Positions 12,543 through 60,575 of a stretch of 64,000 nucleotides of DNA are shown one piece after another. The stretch spans positions 1-64,000 of the forward strand of contig JABXKS010000120.1 in assembly GCA_013619125.1 (NCBI GenBank), in the 5' to 3' direction. The notes beneath the pieces are model-generated. The model worked only from the letters and a program-made list of their open reading frames with translations, did not search any database and was not told the origin of the DNA. The DNA is from Clostridiales bacterium (GTDB lineage Bacteria > Bacillota > Clostridia > Tissierellales > GPF-1). How positions within the stretch are numbered: position 1 is the first letter of the stretch; each line of letters begins with the position of its first letter. A program made the position numbers and the translations under genes.

Positions 12543-12608
12543 AAAGAAAAACTTGTCAAGACTTGACGAATGGTGTTTGCTTTCGTATAATGAACGTACA
12601 AAAGAATA

Positions 12609-12717
12609 TTCTTCAGGGCAGGGTGAAATTCCCGACCGGCGGTGATAGTCCGCGAGCCGAAAGGCTGACTTGGTGTAATTCCAAGACCGACAGTACAGTC
12701 TGGATGAGAGAAGAAGA
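12609..12717 (+). promoter_or_regulatory. FMN riboswitch (RFN element)
   Basis: CTTCAGGGCAGGGTGAAATTCCCGACCGGCGGTGATAGTCCGCGAGCC...GACAGTACAGTCTGGATGAGAGAAG. Confidence 0.96.
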
Positions 12718-12734
12718 GCGTTTGCTCGTACCTT

Positions 12735-36046: not shown

Positions 36047-36072
36047 ACTTAATTAAGTCAAAAGAATATTGT

Positions 36073-36137
36073 TCATATATCATCCGGGATTTGGCCGGAA
36101 AGTATCTACCAGAAAGCCGTAAACTTTTTGACTATGA
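36073..36137 (+). promoter_or_regulatory. Guanine riboswitch aptamer (purine class)
   Basis: TCATATATCATCCGGGATTTGGCCGGAAAGTATCTACCAGAAAGCCGTAAACTTTTTGACTATGA: P1 TCATA/TATGA, P2 CCGG/CCGG, J2/3 TNTCTACC, P3, J3/1 GACTATG with the guanine-specifying C. Confidence 0.93.
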
Positions 36138-36157
36138 GCAGACCTACCACAAGTGTA

Positions 36158-52862: not shown

Positions 52863-53498
52863 TCAAATGATTTCATTTATTTTGTCGGCGGTTCTTATTT
52901 TGTTGAGGGTTCTCATTCCAAACCCGACCAAGAGAACGCCTACGGCGCCATTGAAGGATTTCAGTATAATCGGTGAGATGATTACCGAGAGTGTGTTGCC
53001 AAGAACACTGACGGCGCTGAGGAAGACTAGGGTGGAAAGCACAGCTCCTGTGCCAAATTTAATCATATCGATTTGACCAAGGTTTTCTTCTGCGAGCTTG
53101 GCTGAAAATACGCCAGCCCAGAAGAGGATGGTCAATGGGTTTGACAGGGTCAAGAGCATGGTATGCTGGAATATGTTTCCTGGATCACCGGCTGCCAGGC
53201 TGAAGCTTGGAAGAAAAGAGATGTCGAAGGCGCCCAGGAGAGTGCTGAGTCCGAACACCATGACGATGATCCCGCCAAAGAGCTGAATGAAGTGTTGAAT
53301 CTTGGGGTTTGCTTTGAGTAGTGTGCCCAGACCAAGAATGGCTGCCGCAATAAAGAGGGCGTCAACTAGAGTGACACCGAGTACGCCGAGAAGGGCTGGT
53401 TTTAGCCCTGTGGAAATGGCCGTTTGAAAGATGAATAGACAGACCGGACCCACTGCAAATTGCAGGAGGAGGCCGAATTTGAATCCCTTGATCATCAT
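52863..53498 (-). CDS. LysE family translocator
   Basis: GLLLQFAVGPVCLFIFQTAISTGLKPALLGVLGVTLVDALF; adjacent Lrp. Confidence 0.88.
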   Translation of the reverse strand: MMIKGFKFGLLLQFAVGPVCLFIFQTAISTGLKPALLGVLGVTLVDALFIAAAILGLGTLLKANPKIQHFIQLFGGIIVMVFGLSTLLGAFDISFLPSFSLAAGDPGNIFQHTMLLTLSNPLTILFWAGVFSAKLAEENLGQIDMIKFGTGAVLSTLVFLSAVSVLGNTLSVIISPIILKSFNGAVGVLLVGFGMRTLNKIRTADKINEII

Positions 53499-53947
53499 GG
53501 CGCCGCAATCCTGTTAAGGTCTGACTTGATCGTTGAAAGATTGATCAGGGTATTGGTCTTCTGGACGCTGAAGATGCCTTTCAATCGGTTGCTGATAAAT
53601 TGTTCAAGCTCTTGGGTGTCGGTGAGAAGAACCTTTAAGAGATAATCATATTCGCCTGCAATATGATGGCATTCGAGGACCTCGGGGAAGGAGTTCATCG
53701 CTTCTCGAAATTGAGGGATGGAAGCACCGCCCTTGAGGGAGACGAAAACGAAGGCCATTAGATTTAGATTCATTTTCTTGTAGTTGAGCTTCAAGGTGAA
53801 TTGTTCGATAATGCCGGCTTCTTCTAATTTTTTGATTCTTTCGGATACTGCTGGTGTTGATAAGCTGACGAGTTTTGAGATTTCCGAGACGGTGGCGCGA
53901 CTGTTTTTATCGAGTGCATCGAGGATGGCAAGATCTGTATGATCCAT
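53495..53947 (-). CDS. Lrp/AsnC family transcriptional regulator
   Basis: DLAILDALDKNSRATVSEISKLVSLSTPAVSERIKKLEEAGIIEQF. Confidence 0.95.
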   Translation of the reverse strand: MDHTDLAILDALDKNSRATVSEISKLVSLSTPAVSERIKKLEEAGIIEQFTLKLNYKKMNLNLMAFVFVSLKGGASIPQFREAMNSFPEVLECHHIAGEYDYLLKVLLTDTQELEQFISNRLKGIFSVQKTNTLINLSTIKSDLNRIAAP

Positions 53948-54159: not shown

Positions 54160-54188
54160 TTGACAATGCATTACGGAAGCTTTACACT
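54160..54188 (+). promoter_or_regulatory. Promoter of aromatic leader/aro operon
   Basis: TTGACA-N17-TACACT. Confidence 0.8.
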
Positions 54189-54214
54189 AATAAAAAATCC
54201 AATGAGGTGCAACT

Positions 54215-54379
54215 ATGAACCGATTGATTGAAGCAATCAAAGAGAATTGTACACAATTGAAGCAACAAGCAATTGCATATTTTACATTCTTTTTCCAAGG
54301 CTATTATTTTTATTATGGCGTTGGCTATTTTGCATTCAATTATATACGAACAAATCGAATCATAGGGGAACCGGCATAG
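54215..54379 (+). CDS. Candidate Phe/Tyr-rich leader peptide (54 aa), absent from the supplied ORF track
   Basis: MNRLIEAIKENCTQLKQQAIAYFTFFFQGYYFYYGVGYFAFNYIRTNRIIGEPA; SD GAGGTG 6 nt upstream; sits between promoter and terminator of the aro operon. Confidence 0.85.
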   Translation: MNRLIEAIKENCTQLKQQAIAYFTFFFQGYYFYYGVGYFAFNYIRTNRIIGEPA

Positions 54380-54400
54380 GAAACGTTACTCACTACTAGC

Positions 54401-54433
54401 TGCGGGGAATCAATTGATTCTCCGCATTTTTTT
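54401..54433 (+). terminator. Attenuator terminator upstream of aroF
   Basis: TGCGGGGAATC-AATT-GATTCTCCGCA-TTTTTTT; 11 bp stem, tetraloop. Confidence 0.93.
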
Positions 54434-54461
54434 ATGTTTTTTTCGGAAAGGGAGGAAAATT

Positions 54462-55472
54462 ATGGTTATTGTAATGAAAAAAGGAGCAAAGGATTCGGAT
54501 ATTCAGGCGGTGGTCGCTCATATCCACAAAAATGGAAACGAGGCAGATGTAAGTAGCGGGCCAAATCGAACCGTGATTGGCGTTATTGGAGACACATTGA
54601 AATTTGAATTGTCGGAGTTTTTGATGGATCCGATGGTGGACAAGGCGTACCGTATTACGGTTCCCTACAAACTGGCAAGTCGATCTTATAAACGAGACGA
54701 TACAGTAGTCATGGTAGGAAATGTTCCTGTAGGCAACGGAAGCTTTACAGTGATTGCTGGTCCTTGCGCCATTGAGAGTCGCGATCAGATGATGGCGGCG
54801 GCAATAGCGGTTAAGAAATCAGGCGCAAATATCCTTCGCGGTGGTGCATTCAAGCCTAGAACATCGCCATATAGCTTTCAAGGAATGGGCGTTGAAGGCT
54901 TGAAATTGTTGAAAGAAGCGGGCGAGCTTACTGGACTCCCGGTTGTATCGGAATTGATGAGCACTGCAGATTACGATGTGGTAGCGGAGCATGTGGATCT
55001 GATTCAGATTGGTGCTAGAAATATGCAGAACTTTTCTTTATTGAAATGCGTTGGTCGTGGAGACAAGCCAGTTTTATTGAAACGCGGCATGTCGGCAACA
55101 CTGGAAGAGTTATTGGTAGCGGCGGAATACATTATGGCGGAAGGCAATCGCAACGTCATTCTGTGCGAAAGAGGAATTCGAACTTTCGAGAAATATATGA
55201 GAAACACCCTAGATCTGAATGTGGTAACGGCCATTAAAGAGATGTCGCATTTGCCGATTCTGATTGATCCAAGTCATGCGTCTGGTAGACGAAACATGGT
55301 CATTCCGATGGCGCGGGCGTCGGCAGCGATCAAGGCAGATGGTGTCATGGTTGAGGTTCATGCGAATCCAGATGAGGCGTTGTGTGACGGGGGACAGTCT
55401 TTGTACCCAGAACATTTTGAAGAGTTGATGCAGTCGGTGCGGGTGGTGCACGAAGCTGTGCGCGACCTATAA
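54462..55472 (+). CDS. aroF: 3-deoxy-7-phosphoheptulonate synthase (with N-terminal ferredoxin-like regulatory domain)
   Basis: MVIVMKKGAKDSDIQAVVAHI...IAGPCAIESRDQMMAAA...GGAFKPRTSPYSFQGMG. Confidence 0.96.
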   Translation: MVIVMKKGAKDSDIQAVVAHIHKNGNEADVSSGPNRTVIGVIGDTLKFELSEFLMDPMVDKAYRITVPYKLASRSYKRDDTVVMVGNVPVGNGSFTVIAGPCAIESRDQMMAAAIAVKKSGANILRGGAFKPRTSPYSFQGMGVEGLKLLKEAGELTGLPVVSELMSTADYDVVAEHVDLIQIGARNMQNFSLLKCVGRGDKPVLLKRGMSATLEELLVAAEYIMAEGNRNVILCERGIRTFEKYMRNTLDLNVVTAIKEMSHLPILIDPSHASGRRNMVIPMARASAAIKADGVMVEVHANPDEALCDGGQSLYPEHFEELMQSVRVVHEAVRDL

Positions 55473-55486
55473 GAGGAGGAAAAGAG

Positions 55487-56329
55487 ATGGAATCGGACTT
55501 TAAGCGGATTTTAATAGTTGGAATGGGATTGATGGGCGGATCATTTGCGAAAGCGATTCGCTATGCGGTTCCTGCAATTAAAATGGATGGGCTGGATCTG
55601 GATTATGAATCAATCGAGACAGCCCAAGCCCTCGGTATTATCGATGCGGGATTTAGCCAGACCCAAGAAGAAAAATATGACTTGATCGTATTGGCGACAC
55701 CCCTAGGAGCATATCCAACCATTATCAATATGTTGATTCCATGGATGGCGGAAGGCGCCCTGGTGACAGACTTGGGAAGCGTCAAGGAACGGGTTCATAG
55801 AGAAATGGTAGCTTGTTTGCCGGAGTTTGTTTCCTTTTTAGGCGGGCATCCCATGTGTGGAGCGGAACGGAATGGATTTTCTGCATCCCGTGCGGATCTC
55901 TTTGATGGGAAGGTATTTTTCATAACCGGCGGAACCAATTGTCCAGTGCAAAACGCATATATTCGATTACTGGAAGCCATTGACGTACAGATCGTAAGGA
56001 CGAGTCCGAAAGAACATGATACAATGGTGGCGAAAACAAGTCATATTCCTCATTTGACTGCCGTTTTGCTTTCCACTTTGATGGAAAGTGAAGAGAATTT
56101 CAAAAATTACATTGGCGATGGCTTTCGAGATTCCACGAGGATTGCCGCGGGAGATCCAAAGGTGTGGAGAGATATCTTCTTATATAACGCACCGGCAATA
56201 CTGGAGGACTTGGAAGAATTTCAAAGAAAACTCAATCGCTTGAAAAATTGTTTGCAGTCGGACAATGGAATGGAAATTCTAGATACATTGGCAAGCGGCA
56301 AGCAGTTTCAAGAGGGAATAAAGGAGTAG
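55487..56329 (+). CDS. tyrA: Prephenate dehydrogenase
   Basis: ILIVGMGLMGGSFAKAIR, GGHPMCGAERNGFSASRADLFDG. Confidence 0.93.
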   Translation: MESDFKRILIVGMGLMGGSFAKAIRYAVPAIKMDGLDLDYESIETAQALGIIDAGFSQTQEEKYDLIVLATPLGAYPTIINMLIPWMAEGALVTDLGSVKERVHREMVACLPEFVSFLGGHPMCGAERNGFSASRADLFDGKVFFITGGTNCPVQNAYIRLLEAIDVQIVRTSPKEHDTMVAKTSHIPHLTAVLLSTLMESEENFKNYIGDGFRDSTRIAAGDPKVWRDIFLYNAPAILEDLEEFQRKLNRLKNCLQSDNGMEILDTLASGKQFQEGIKE

Positions 56330-56332
56330 AGG

Positions 56333-57412
56333 ATGCAAAAAATCGATGTGCAATCAAAACACGGGAAATATCCAATCTTAATTGAAGAGGGAATATTTAA
56401 GCAGGCGGGAAATTGGATTCGCAGGTGGATGCCTTCTTCACAATTGGCGATTATCACCGATACCAATGTAGGCGAACTCTACTTGGAGCAACTTCAGGCT
56501 GATTTGAAGCAAGCTGGACTAGGGTTTGTGGATGCCTTCATAATCAAGGCGGGTGAAGAGAGCAAGAACCTTCAAACAATAGAGACTATTTATCATTGGC
56601 TTTTAGAAAAAGGGCACGATCGATCCAGTGGGATCATTGCCCTCGGCGGCGGTGTTGTAGGTGATATGTCTGGGTTTGTCGCTTCAACGTTTATGAGGGG
56701 AATTCCTTTTGTGCAAGTGCCGACGAGTTTGTTGGCACAGGTAGACAGTAGCGTTGGCGGAAAGGTTGGCGTGAATGTAAGGGAAGGAAAAAATTTGATT
56801 GGCAGTTTCTATGCGCCTAAGGGTGTGATTATTGACCCTAGTGTTCTAATGTCTTTGCCGATGAGACAATTTCGAAACGGGATTGCCGAGGTTGTAAAGA
56901 CAGGGGCGATTTTGGATGCGAATTTATTGAAGCAAGTTGCTCTTTTGCGTGACGAAGCGGAGCTGAGACCTGCATGGGGCAAGGTGATTGCGCGCTGCTG
57001 CGAGTTAAAGGCGATGGTTGTCAGCCAGGATGAAGAGGAGCACGGACTTCGAAAGATTTTGAATTTCGGCCATAGTTTTGGACATGGCATTGAGCAATAC
57101 ACGGAATACAAGAAATATGCCCATGGCGAGGCTGTTGCCATAGGGATGATTCTGGCAGCGCAAATCGGTCAAGAATTAGGAATCACGGAATCGGGTGTCG
57201 AAGAAGAGTTGACAGCTTTGCTCACTCAATTTCACTTGCCGGTTCAATCCATTCCAATTCCGACGGAAGAATGGCTTGCTGCCATGAAAAAAGATAAGAA
57301 GAAAAGCCGAGGACTCTTGCATCTTGTGGCGGTGAAAGCGATGGGGCAGGCAGTGGTACGTCCTGTGAAATATGGTATTATTGAAGACTTTTTAAAGGGG
57401 GTAGCGGAATGA
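56333..57412 (+). CDS. aroB: 3-dehydroquinate synthase
   Basis: IALGGGVVGDMSGFVASTFMRGIPFVQVPTSLLAQVDSSVGGKVGVN. Confidence 0.97.
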   Translation: MQKIDVQSKHGKYPILIEEGIFKQAGNWIRRWMPSSQLAIITDTNVGELYLEQLQADLKQAGLGFVDAFIIKAGEESKNLQTIETIYHWLLEKGHDRSSGIIALGGGVVGDMSGFVASTFMRGIPFVQVPTSLLAQVDSSVGGKVGVNVREGKNLIGSFYAPKGVIIDPSVLMSLPMRQFRNGIAEVVKTGAILDANLLKQVALLRDEAELRPAWGKVIARCCELKAMVVSQDEEEHGLRKILNFGHSFGHGIEQYTEYKKYAHGEAVAIGMILAAQIGQELGITESGVEEELTALLTQFHLPVQSIPIPTEEWLAAMKKDKKKSRGLLHLVAVKAMGQAVVRPVKYGIIEDFLKGVAE

Positions 57413-58668
57413 AACGAGTGATTCAGCCATCGAGTTTACAGGGCACCTTGCGAGTTCCTTCCTCTAAAAGCGTTTCGCACCGTGCCTTGATCTGCGCAGC
57501 CTTGAGTGCGGGGGTTTCTTGTGTAAGCGGACTTGATGATTCGAGGGATTTGCGTGCAACCCGTGAGGCGATGGAAGCCTTGGGGGCGAGTTTTGAGCTC
57601 GTGGAAGACGGTATTTGGGAAATCACCGGGGTCAGGGAACATACGAAAAATGCTGTAATTGATTGTGGTGAATCGGGTTCAACCCTTCGCTTTATGATTC
57701 CGATTGCGGCACTTTTAGCGGATCGTGCAGAGTTTAATGGAGAAGGTAAGTTGCCGACTCGGCCGATTCAGACGATCCTTGATGTCTTTGACCAGGCGGG
57801 AACAACCTATACATATCCAGGACAATTGCCTCTTGTCACTGAGCGGTTTGAGTTGCCAACTTCCTTTGAACTGGATGGAAGCATTAGCTCGCAATTCTTT
57901 ACGGGCTTTTTACTTGCGGCGCCCATTGCGAAATCCGAAATGACATTGGACATTCAGGGGAAGTTGGAGTCGGAGCCCTATGTGGAGTTGACTCGAGAGG
58001 TGATGGCTGCCTTTGGTATTGAGATCAATCGGACAGAAACGGGATACTACGTGCCGGATGGTCAAAGATATACCTCGGTTGACTTTCATGTAGAGGGCGA
58101 CTTTTCGCAAGCTGCATTTTGGATTGTTGCCGGATTAATTGGCACGCAGCCCATTTGTCTCAGGGGATTGAAGAAAAAGTCGAGGCAAGGGGATCGAGCG
58201 ATTCTATTCTTGGTGCGCGAGATGGGCGGGGATTGGGAATGGAAAAATGATGATCTGTGGGTGTATCCATCCAAAACAACTGGCATTACTATCGACGTTC
58301 GAGATATTCCAGATCTGGTACCGATTTTGTCGGTACTTGCAGCCGTCAGCTTTGGGGAAACAAGGATTGTCAATGCGGCTAGACTTCGTATCAAAGAATC
58401 GGACCGATTGGAGTCGACAACGAATGTGTTAACAGCGTTGGGTGTGAAGATTCAGGAAGAAAAAGAAGGATTGCTAATTCAAGGTGGCGAAGGATTTACC
58501 GGCGGCTTGGTGGATGCGTGGAACGATCATCGCATCGCCATGGCGGTAGCCATTGCCAGTATAAGGGCGTCGGCAGAGATTGAATTAACTGGAAGTGAAG
58601 CGGTGAATAAGTCATACCCGCATTTTTGGGATGAGTTTCAGCGAATGGGAGGAAAAATAGATGAGTAG
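57409..58668 (+). CDS. aroA: 3-phosphoshikimate 1-carboxyvinyltransferase (EPSP synthase)
   Basis: LRVPSSKSVSHRALICAALS, CGESGSTLRFMIPIAAL, RIKESDRLESTTNVL. Confidence 0.97.
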   Translation: MKRVIQPSSLQGTLRVPSSKSVSHRALICAALSAGVSCVSGLDDSRDLRATREAMEALGASFELVEDGIWEITGVREHTKNAVIDCGESGSTLRFMIPIAALLADRAEFNGEGKLPTRPIQTILDVFDQAGTTYTYPGQLPLVTERFELPTSFELDGSISSQFFTGFLLAAPIAKSEMTLDIQGKLESEPYVELTREVMAAFGIEINRTETGYYVPDGQRYTSVDFHVEGDFSQAAFWIVAGLIGTQPICLRGLKKKSRQGDRAILFLVREMGGDWEWKNDDLWVYPSKTTGITIDVRDIPDLVPILSVLAAVSFGETRIVNAARLRIKESDRLESTTNVLTALGVKIQEEKEGLLIQGGEGFTGGLVDAWNDHRIAMAVAIASIRASAEIELTGSEAVNKSYPHFWDEFQRMGGKIDE

Positions 58669-59749
58669 TCAGTGGGGAAAGAATCTTCGAATGAGTATAT
58701 TTGGGGAAAGCCATGGCACTGCCATTGGTGTGGTAATGGATGGACTTCCTTCGGGATTGCCGATCGATGAAGAACGGATTCTTTTTGAGATGAAGCGCAG
58801 ACAACCTGGGAATATGCCTTGGAGCACCAAACGGAAAGAAGCGGATCTACCAGAGATTGTTAGCGGCAGTTATGAAGGAAAGACAACGGGGACTCCTCTT
58901 TGTGCCATGATAAGAAATACCAACGCGCGATCGAAGGATTATTCAGTATTGACATCTTTGTATCGCCCGTCTCACGCAGATTATTCGGGAAGCATTCGCT
59001 ATGATGGCGCCAATGATCCCAGAGGGGGCGGACATTTTTCTGGGCGATTGACGGCACCCATGGTATTTGCAGGTGCATTGATCCGGCCGTGGTTGGAAGA
59101 GAAGGGAATTTTTATTTTCGCTCAGATTCGCCGAATTGGCGGACTTGGAACGAAGCCGATCGAGACGCTTTCGGAAGAGGAATTGAAGAGTTTGTCCGGA
59201 TTGGACTTTGCCGTGTCTCGGGAGTGGGACCGCAAGGAAATGATTGAAGCTATTGAAAAAACTCGACTGCAGGAAGACTCCTTGGGCGGCTCGATTGAGT
59301 TGTTGATTACCGGCTTGCCGGTTGGGGTTGGTAACCCGATCTTCGATACGGTGGAGGGGAACCTGGCGCAAGCCTTGTTTGGAATCCCGGCCGTCAAGGC
59401 GATTGAGTTTGGAGACGGATGTGAGTTTGCGGATATGACGGGTTCCCAGGCTGCGGATGAAATGCGAATGGATGGCGATACGATTACCTTCGCATCGAAT
59501 CACAACGGCGGGATCGTTGGTGGGATTACAACGGGCGCGCCGATTCGATGTCGTATCACGATCAAACCGACACCATCCATCAGTCAACCCCTTCAAACCG
59601 TAACGCGGGAAGGTGTTGATGAAACCTTGCGGTTGACGGGTCGGCATGATCCTTGTGTTGTCCCTCGCGCCGTACCTGTAGCAGAAGCGGTTGCAGCCAT
59701 GGTGCTGGCTGATTTGCTCTTGGGAGGTGGCGATCATGGCGACAAGTAA
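58661..59749 (+). CDS. aroC: Chorismate synthase
   Basis: GESHGTAIGVVMDGLPSGLPID, YDGANDPRGGGHFSGRLTAPMVFAGAL. Confidence 0.97.
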   Translation: MSSQWGKNLRMSIFGESHGTAIGVVMDGLPSGLPIDEERILFEMKRRQPGNMPWSTKRKEADLPEIVSGSYEGKTTGTPLCAMIRNTNARSKDYSVLTSLYRPSHADYSGSIRYDGANDPRGGGHFSGRLTAPMVFAGALIRPWLEEKGIFIFAQIRRIGGLGTKPIETLSEEELKSLSGLDFAVSREWDRKEMIEAIEKTRLQEDSLGGSIELLITGLPVGVGNPIFDTVEGNLAQALFGIPAVKAIEFGDGCEFADMTGSQAADEMRMDGDTITFASNHNGGIVGGITTGAPIRCRITIKPTPSISQPLQTVTREGVDETLRLTGRHDPCVVPRAVPVAEAVAAMVLADLLLGGGDHGDK

Positions 59750-60575
59750 GTTGGTTGGGTATCAAGGTGTTCCCGGCGCATTTTCTGAAATTGCTGTTCG
59801 TTCTTTTTTTCATGGATTTGAACATCGTGCTTTTGAAACCTTTGAAGCGGTGGTGGAAGCGGTGCAATCCGACGAAGTTATCGCGGGCATGCTCCCTATT
59901 GAAAATAGCTCAACGGGCGCCATTCGTGCCGTGTATACCCTGTTGCTTCAGGCGGGACTCAAGATCGTAGGAGAGGAATATGTTCCCGTGAGGCATTGCC
60001 TGATGGTGAAACCGGGAGCGAAACTGGAAAATATCCGAGATGTTTATTCCCATCCGGAAGCTTTGCGGCAATGTCAGGCTTTTTTAGGTGAGTATAGGGA
60101 GTGGACACAGCATGCTTATCTCAATACGGCCAAAAGTGCGGAGCGCGTTGCGGAAAGTGGGGATGAAACAATCGCGGCGATCGCGAGCAAACGGGCGGCT
60201 GAGATCTATCAGTTGGAAATTTTGAAATCGGAAATTCAAGATCAACGAACCAATACAACACGATTCGTGGTCGTTGCGAAAGCATCGATTGAAAATACGC
60301 CGCTTACCAAGGCGTCAATGATCTTGCGGGTTTCACATCAGCCGGGTTGCCTTTTCGAAGCCCTTGGCGTGTTTTCGGAGTATAAAATCAATATGTCGAA
60401 GATTGAATCCCATCCAGCAAAAGAGGTGCCGTGGGAGTATGATTTCTTCATTGATCTGGAACGAACGGCCGATGAAAAAGCATTTCAAGCGATGCTGGGA
60501 GAACTAAGCAAACGGTCTTTGGAATATCAATTGTTGGGGTCCTATACGGCTAATCCCCTTAATGAGATCAAATAA
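59736..60575 (+). CDS. pheA: Prephenate dehydratase
   Basis: YQGVPGAFSEIAVRSFF, PIENSSTGAIRAVYTLL, NTTRFVVV, ACT domain SHQPGCLFEALGVFSEYKINMSKIESHPAKEVPWEYDFFIDLE. Confidence 0.95.
   Translation: MATSKLVGYQGVPGAFSEIAVRSFFHGFEHRAFETFEAVVEAVQSDEVIAGMLPIENSSTGAIRAVYTLLLQAGLKIVGEEYVPVRHCLMVKPGAKLENIRDVYSHPEALRQCQAFLGEYREWTQHAYLNTAKSAERVAESGDETIAAIASKRAAEIYQLEILKSEIQDQRTNTTRFVVVAKASIENTPLTKASMILRVSHQPGCLFEALGVFSEYKINMSKIESHPAKEVPWEYDFFIDLERTADEKAFQAMLGELSKRSLEYQLLGSYTANPLNEIK

Follow-up and report, generated by a model that had tools for sequence, protein, structure and literature searches.

The window analyzed here, a stretch of 64,000 nucleotides from a Clostridiales bacterium (contig JABXKS010000120.1), contains a predicted aromatic amino acid biosynthesis operon that is preceded by a promoter, a short leader ORF rich in Phe and Tyr codons, and an intrinsic terminator (Table 1). 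NCBIfam models agree with the six-gene order initially annotated, aroF-tyrA-aroB-aroA-aroC-pheA, with tyrA recognized only through strong matches that fall below the cut-offs. Adjoining the operon upstream, and divergent from it on the minus strand (52863-53947), are genes for an Lrp/AsnC-family regulator and then a LysE/RhtB-type exporter, which could form an amino-acid-responsive pair. Elsewhere in the window, an FMN riboswitch (12605-12719) and a purine riboswitch (36053-36154) both score above the Rfam gathering scores.

Table 1. Features of the aroF leader region and of the downstream operon (positions in the window).
Feature	Position	Strand	Basis or remark
Promoter, -35 TTGACA / 17 nt / -10 TACACT	54160-54188	+	10/12 consensus; predicted from sequence
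5' strand of predicted long-range closing helix, including leader Shine-Dalgarno and start codon	54198-54236	+	partner within 54328-54381
Shine-Dalgarno GAGGTG of leader ORF	54204-54209	+	sequence
Leader ORF, ATG start, 54 aa, MNRLIEAIKENCTQLKQQAIAYFTFFFQGYYFYYGVGYFAFNYIRTNRIIGEPA	54215-54379	+	sequence; many Clostridia have similar ORFs ahead of aroF
Sensor codons 22-43 (7 Phe, 7 Tyr)	54278-54343	+	codons 22-27 immediately 5' of in-frame hairpin
In-frame hairpin, CCAA-G-GCUA / 12-nt loop / UGGC-G-UUGG (4 bp, G.G mismatch, 4 bp)	54295-54324	+	codon register as in other Clostridia
Region 2, candidate antiterminator strand, CCGGCAUAG	54371-54379	+	overlaps leader stop; unchanged in three species
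Leader stop codon	54377-54379	+	
Region 3, candidate, CUAGCUGCGGG	54396-54406	+	overlaps terminator 5' arm; unchanged in three species
Intrinsic terminator, 11-bp stem + tetraloop (54401-54426), then T7	54401-54433	+	
aroF, DAHP synthase (PRK08673 / TIGR01361)	54462-55472	+	NCBIfam
tyrA, prephenate dehydrogenase family	55487-56329	+	NCBIfam: strong E-value, below equivalog cut-offs
aroB, 3-dehydroquinate synthase	56333-57412	+	NCBIfam
aroA, EPSP synthase	57409-58668	+	NCBIfam
aroC, chorismate synthase	58661-59749	+	NCBIfam
pheA, prephenate dehydratase	59736-60575	+	NCBIfam

The promoter, Shine-Dalgarno sequence, 54-codon ORF, and terminator of the initial annotation were all recovered base for base at the coordinates assigned to them there; a second GGGGAA copy that had been placed at 54364 in fact starts at 54366. 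The short predicted ORF and its Shine-Dalgarno sequence lie within the predicted transcribed leader and are conserved in the genus, and the terminator sits between this ORF and the first gene, aroF, as in attenuators. Over codons 22-43, Phe and Tyr, the end products of the operon, account for 14 of 22 residues. The ORF peaks at 9 aromatic residues per 12 codons; when aroF-upstream regions were dinucleotide-shuffled 2,130 times, no ORF reached this value, which argues against a chance origin. No Rfam family matches the leader region, and the T-box model RF00230 is also without a match there.

In the collection, the family to which the window's genome belongs is represented by a single genus of three species, and the leader was compared across all three. 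A comparison of aroF upstream regions in relatives, a check of the kind suggested in the initial annotation, finds the Phe/Tyr-rich ORF conserved in the genus and ORFs of this type in many other Clostridia. Both other species of the genus carry the leader ORF, with a nucleotide identity among congeners of 94.5-95.2%, versus 80-87% for aroF. At fourfold-degenerate sites, 1 of 15-17 positions differs in the leader ORF, compared to 54 of 149 up to 70 of 139 in aroF. The retention of the ORF together with its nearly frozen silent sites indicates that the leader is selected as a reading frame and as an RNA. The two congeners also retain the promoter hexamers (with TACACT or TAAACT as the -10 element), a leader Shine-Dalgarno sequence (GAGGTG in one, GAGGAG in the other), and the terminator, the loop of which is altered; the DNA upstream of the promoter has diverged.

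More generally, 213 aroF-upstream regions were collected from named genomes, from genomes that share the window's order and class, and by direct fetches, and a leader ORF was called where at least seven F, Y, or W residues fell within 12 codons, with dinucleotide shuffles as the control. An aromatic leader ORF was found in 80 of the 213 regions, mainly from Clostridia, versus 2.3 expected from the shuffles, a fraction that is not an estimate of prevalence, the regions having been chosen by AroF similarity. Among the named genomes, such an ORF is present in Clostridium magnum, C. mediterraneense, Oscillibacter valericigenes, Pelosinus, Monoglobus, and Lachnospiraceae. The arrangement had been considered unusual in a Firmicute; it is instead common before aroF in Clostridia, and seems to be undescribed rather than rare. 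Near the aromatic cluster, 22% of residues are Phe, 20% are Tyr, and 2% are Trp, with Trp present there in 32 of 86 leaders; F and Y swap freely, and ORF length ranges from 17 to 71 aa. None of 20 related aroF leader loci matched Rfam at E values up to 0.1. One leader subtype (L097, L098, L094, and L103) has a Tyr run followed by KLHKYIYKG, with conserved codons in the tail that complement the terminator (UAUAAAGGA x UCCUUUAU).

A codon-by-codon printout of the leaders revealed nucleotide conservation beyond that of the peptide, UGG GGC UAY ... UUU AGC GCN GG, with Ser encoded by AGC in 126 of 197 cases. These codons contribute to a predicted in-frame hairpin, which in the window lies immediately 3' of the first Phe codons. 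Because a MAFFT peptide alignment was too gappy for covariation analysis, the hairpin strands were placed in 45 leaders (30 distinct) solely by codon register, without regard to pairing. Canonical pairs then occupied 202 of 240 cells, versus 186.3 +/- 3.9 with permuted partners (1/5,000), and 99 of 120 cells for the outer four pairs, versus 83.2 +/- 3.5 (0/5,000), figures that are not strict probabilities since the permutation ignores relatedness. At the middle position, 15 have G.G and 10 have A-U. A strict pattern for the hairpin core, outside which the window's own leader falls, has a single occurrence in each of 10 out of 391 class genomes, and its reversed control pattern has none; nine of the ten sites lie within about 450 bases upstream of a listed aroF, and the tenth is in genome G437. 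Judged by these comparisons, the predicted hairpin recurs with compensatory changes across Clostridia and is supported by covariation. In some members of the class, aroF is present twice, at a distance of about 7 kb (G360:C1:719856 and 727542; G485:C47; G569:C40), and the strict core was found before just one copy.

Many leaders have, 3' of the hairpin, a segment (often CUAAUGAGU) that complements the 5' arm and loop of the terminator (often ACUCAUUAG). In other lineages the pairs are unrelated yet matching (GGUAAAGCCCG x CGGGCUUUGC, GUAUUUGUGAGUUUG x CAACUCAUAAAUAC, and AUAAAGGA x UCCUUUAU). The pairing of each segment with its own terminator averages -10.96 kcal/mol, versus -7.85 +/- 0.25 kcal/mol after terminators are exchanged between leaders, and none of 20,000 permutations was as good; the same result (0/20,000) was obtained for the 48 loci that lack the CUCAUY consensus. 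In 33 of 85 leaders, region 2 can also form 4 nt or more of pairing with the sensor codons, a raw count without a control, and such a pairing would equal the classical 1:2 hairpin. No fold common to the leaders was found beyond the hairpin and the 2:3 pairing, and the mean fold z-score of the pre-terminator leaders (-1.9) is not a main argument for the family. Taken from sequence, the combination of an aromatic ORF, a predicted in-frame hairpin, and a complement of the terminator arm is the architecture of a ribosome-mediated attenuator.

Within the window, the strands of the corresponding switch are less readily assigned. When region 3 was scored as terminator arm and loop only, no significant partner emerged relative to shuffled targets (z -0.2); widening it by eight bases yielded two candidate pairings. 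One of them, 54371-54379 with 54396-54406, is short and weak, at about -8 to -10.5 kcal/mol. The letters of both strands are invariant in the three species, most of the spacer at 54382-54389 varies, and this invariance means that covariation cannot test the pairing within the genus. The other, UUUUCCAAGGCUA (54291-54303) with UAGCUGCGGGGAA (54397-54409), is stronger, at -11.9 kcal/mol. It includes the pairing of UUUUCC within the Phe codons with GGGGAA that the initial annotation had raised as a possibility; this antiterminator can form, but a ribosome stalled on the sensor codons would cover its 5' strand, which is part of them. We somewhat favor 54371-54379 with 54396-54406 as the window's antiterminator, because 54371-54379 is better placed: it would be free beside a stalled ribosome and covered by a ribosome at the stop codon.

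Two pairings were discarded: an antiterminator of the form UUUUCC-AA-GGCUA x UAGCU-GC-GGGGAA, which enlarges on the one raised initially and appears in folds but lies within the sensor codons and is weaker in one congener, and a pairing of GGCGUU with the post-stop AACGUUA, which is not conserved among congeners. In folds with the ribosome placed at stall positions, a calculation also proposed initially, the completed terminator was more stable than the antiterminator every time, so that antitermination must be kinetic. For the untranslated leader, the predicted fold has an energy of -46.4 kcal/mol (z -3.1) and joins the region around the start codon to the 3' end of the ORF. Across the three species, 49 of the 59 predicted leader pairs are invariant, 5 are compatible, 1 is compensatory, and 4 are broken in a congener.

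Based on the comparative data, the leader in the window very probably controls the operon from aroF to pheA by ribosome-mediated transcription attenuation, with charged tRNA-Phe and tRNA-Tyr as the signals sensed. This reading, first proposed from the window sequence, is supported in Clostridia by conserved aromatic ORFs, downstream terminators, and a covarying antiterminator pairing. With ample Phe and Tyr, the ribosome would reach the leader stop (54377) and mask the end of the ORF, upon which the terminator at 54401-54433 would form and transcription would halt. Scarcity of either Phe or Tyr would stall the ribosome within codons 22-43, freeing 54371-54379 to pair with 54396-54406; this interaction would hold the terminator 5' arm and result in read-through into aroF. 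If translation fails altogether, the leader would fold on itself from start codon to stop, leaving the terminator free again. The parts themselves come from sequence and comparison, and from them we infer the order of events and the identity of the antiterminator strand in the window's genus. It is also likely that dual Phe/Tyr leader-peptide attenuators of aroF operons form an as yet unlisted family in Clostridia, traces of which extend to Negativicutes and Fusobacteria; the leader codons of its members would double as a hairpin held in a constant codon register, with peptide and RNA co-evolving.

T-boxes bind tRNA directly without translation, whereas the window's leader carries a Phe/Tyr leader ORF. 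The window's genome has 24 T-box (RF00230) matches, none of them in the aroF leader region, and the aroF leader peptide is therefore not a stand-in for a missing T-box system. By eye, from ORF translations, T-boxes of this genome precede pheS- and trpB-like genes; others (among L222-L241) were likewise seen before asnS-, valS-, leuS-, thrS-, and cysE-like genes and genes for amino-acid binding proteins. Three of 20 aroF regions without a clear aromatic leader have a T-box (L149, L150, and L184). The occurrence of either a T-box or a leader peptide before aroF in relatives suggests, at the level of sequence, an exchange of sensor type at one gene.

Alternatively, the leader could encode a nascent-chain arrest peptide that, in the style of TnaC-Trp, responds to free Phe or Tyr rather than to charged tRNA, a reading to which the non-aromatic W-G...S-A-G residues conserved in one clade would lend themselves. 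These residues, however, fall in the paired strands of the hairpin and co-vary to preserve pairing, and the prevalence of AGC among Ser codons (126/197) reflects a constraint on nucleotides rather than on the peptide. Together with the free interchange of F and Y and the spread of ORF lengths from 17 to 71 aa, this makes an arrest peptide quite unlikely. The unusually stable fold (z -3.1) and the conserved hairpin could also point to a metabolite riboswitch or a protein-binding attenuator in which the ORF is incidental. We consider this very unlikely, given that dozens of lineages retain a Phe/Tyr-rich ORF whose codon register over the hairpin is constant, that no common fold of the leaders was found beyond the hairpin and the 2:3 pairing, and that no Rfam riboswitch or T-box matches the leader region or the 20 related loci.

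With its hydrophobic character, the Phe/Tyr-rich stretch could cross a membrane, as it would if the ORF were a functional small membrane protein and the downstream terminator unrelated to it. Almost frozen silent sites, wide variation in sequence and length between genomes, a constant position ahead of a terminator and aroF, and the covarying pairing between ORF region and terminator all speak against such a protein, which we regard as highly improbable.

Firmicute aromatic genes are usually ascribed to regulation by T-boxes, TRAP, or repressors. A family of aroF leader peptides in Clostridia would, if widespread, alter this picture, and it would provide testable regulation for many anaerobes as well as a natural case of a coding sequence and an RNA hairpin selected jointly. 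Ribosome-mediated attenuation is a known mechanism; its breadth before aroF in Clostridia appears to be undescribed, no account of clostridial aroF leader peptides having been found in the open-access literature, to which the search was confined.

The pheL-pheA and trpL attenuators of Escherichia coli have leaders of about 15 aa and sense a single amino acid. The system proposed for the window resembles them in the match between codons and pathway product and, by prediction, in mutually exclusive 2:3 and 3:4 hairpins, and differs in sensing two amino acids, in leader length, in sequence, and in phylum. Attenuation by leader peptides is represented in Firmicutes by a Leu-rich ilvD leader in Staphylococcus aureus (PMC5794164) and by predicted His leader peptides in bacilli (PMC2965389), which concern other amino acids and operons, in Bacilli rather than Clostridia; a 2005 survey concluded that classical attenuation is not used by the aminoacyl-tRNA synthetase genes of Firmicutes (PMC1262725). 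The uORFC-13-1 motif, a predicted Phe-coding uORF with a terminator immediately before aroF, comprises 24 sequences from Acholeplasma and environmental DNA only (PMC8632094). By eye, Acholeplasma oculi (L042) has a short Tyr/Phe ORF that scores 5/12 and lacks the clostridial hairpin core; compared by description, the motif shares with the window's leader an aroF uORF, a terminator, and a low-GC Gram-positive lineage. In Corynebacterium glutamicum, the aroR leader (Neshat et al. 2014), as outlined in PMC11802643, encodes a peptide containing Phe-Tyr-Phe upstream of an aroF operon, and ribosome stalling under Phe limitation leads to read-through, Tyr availability being without effect in that account. 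This organism is an Actinobacterium, and the motif named there holds 3 aromatic residues compared to 14 in the window; going by that description, the two leaders are alike in placing a Phe/Tyr leader peptide before an aroF operon.
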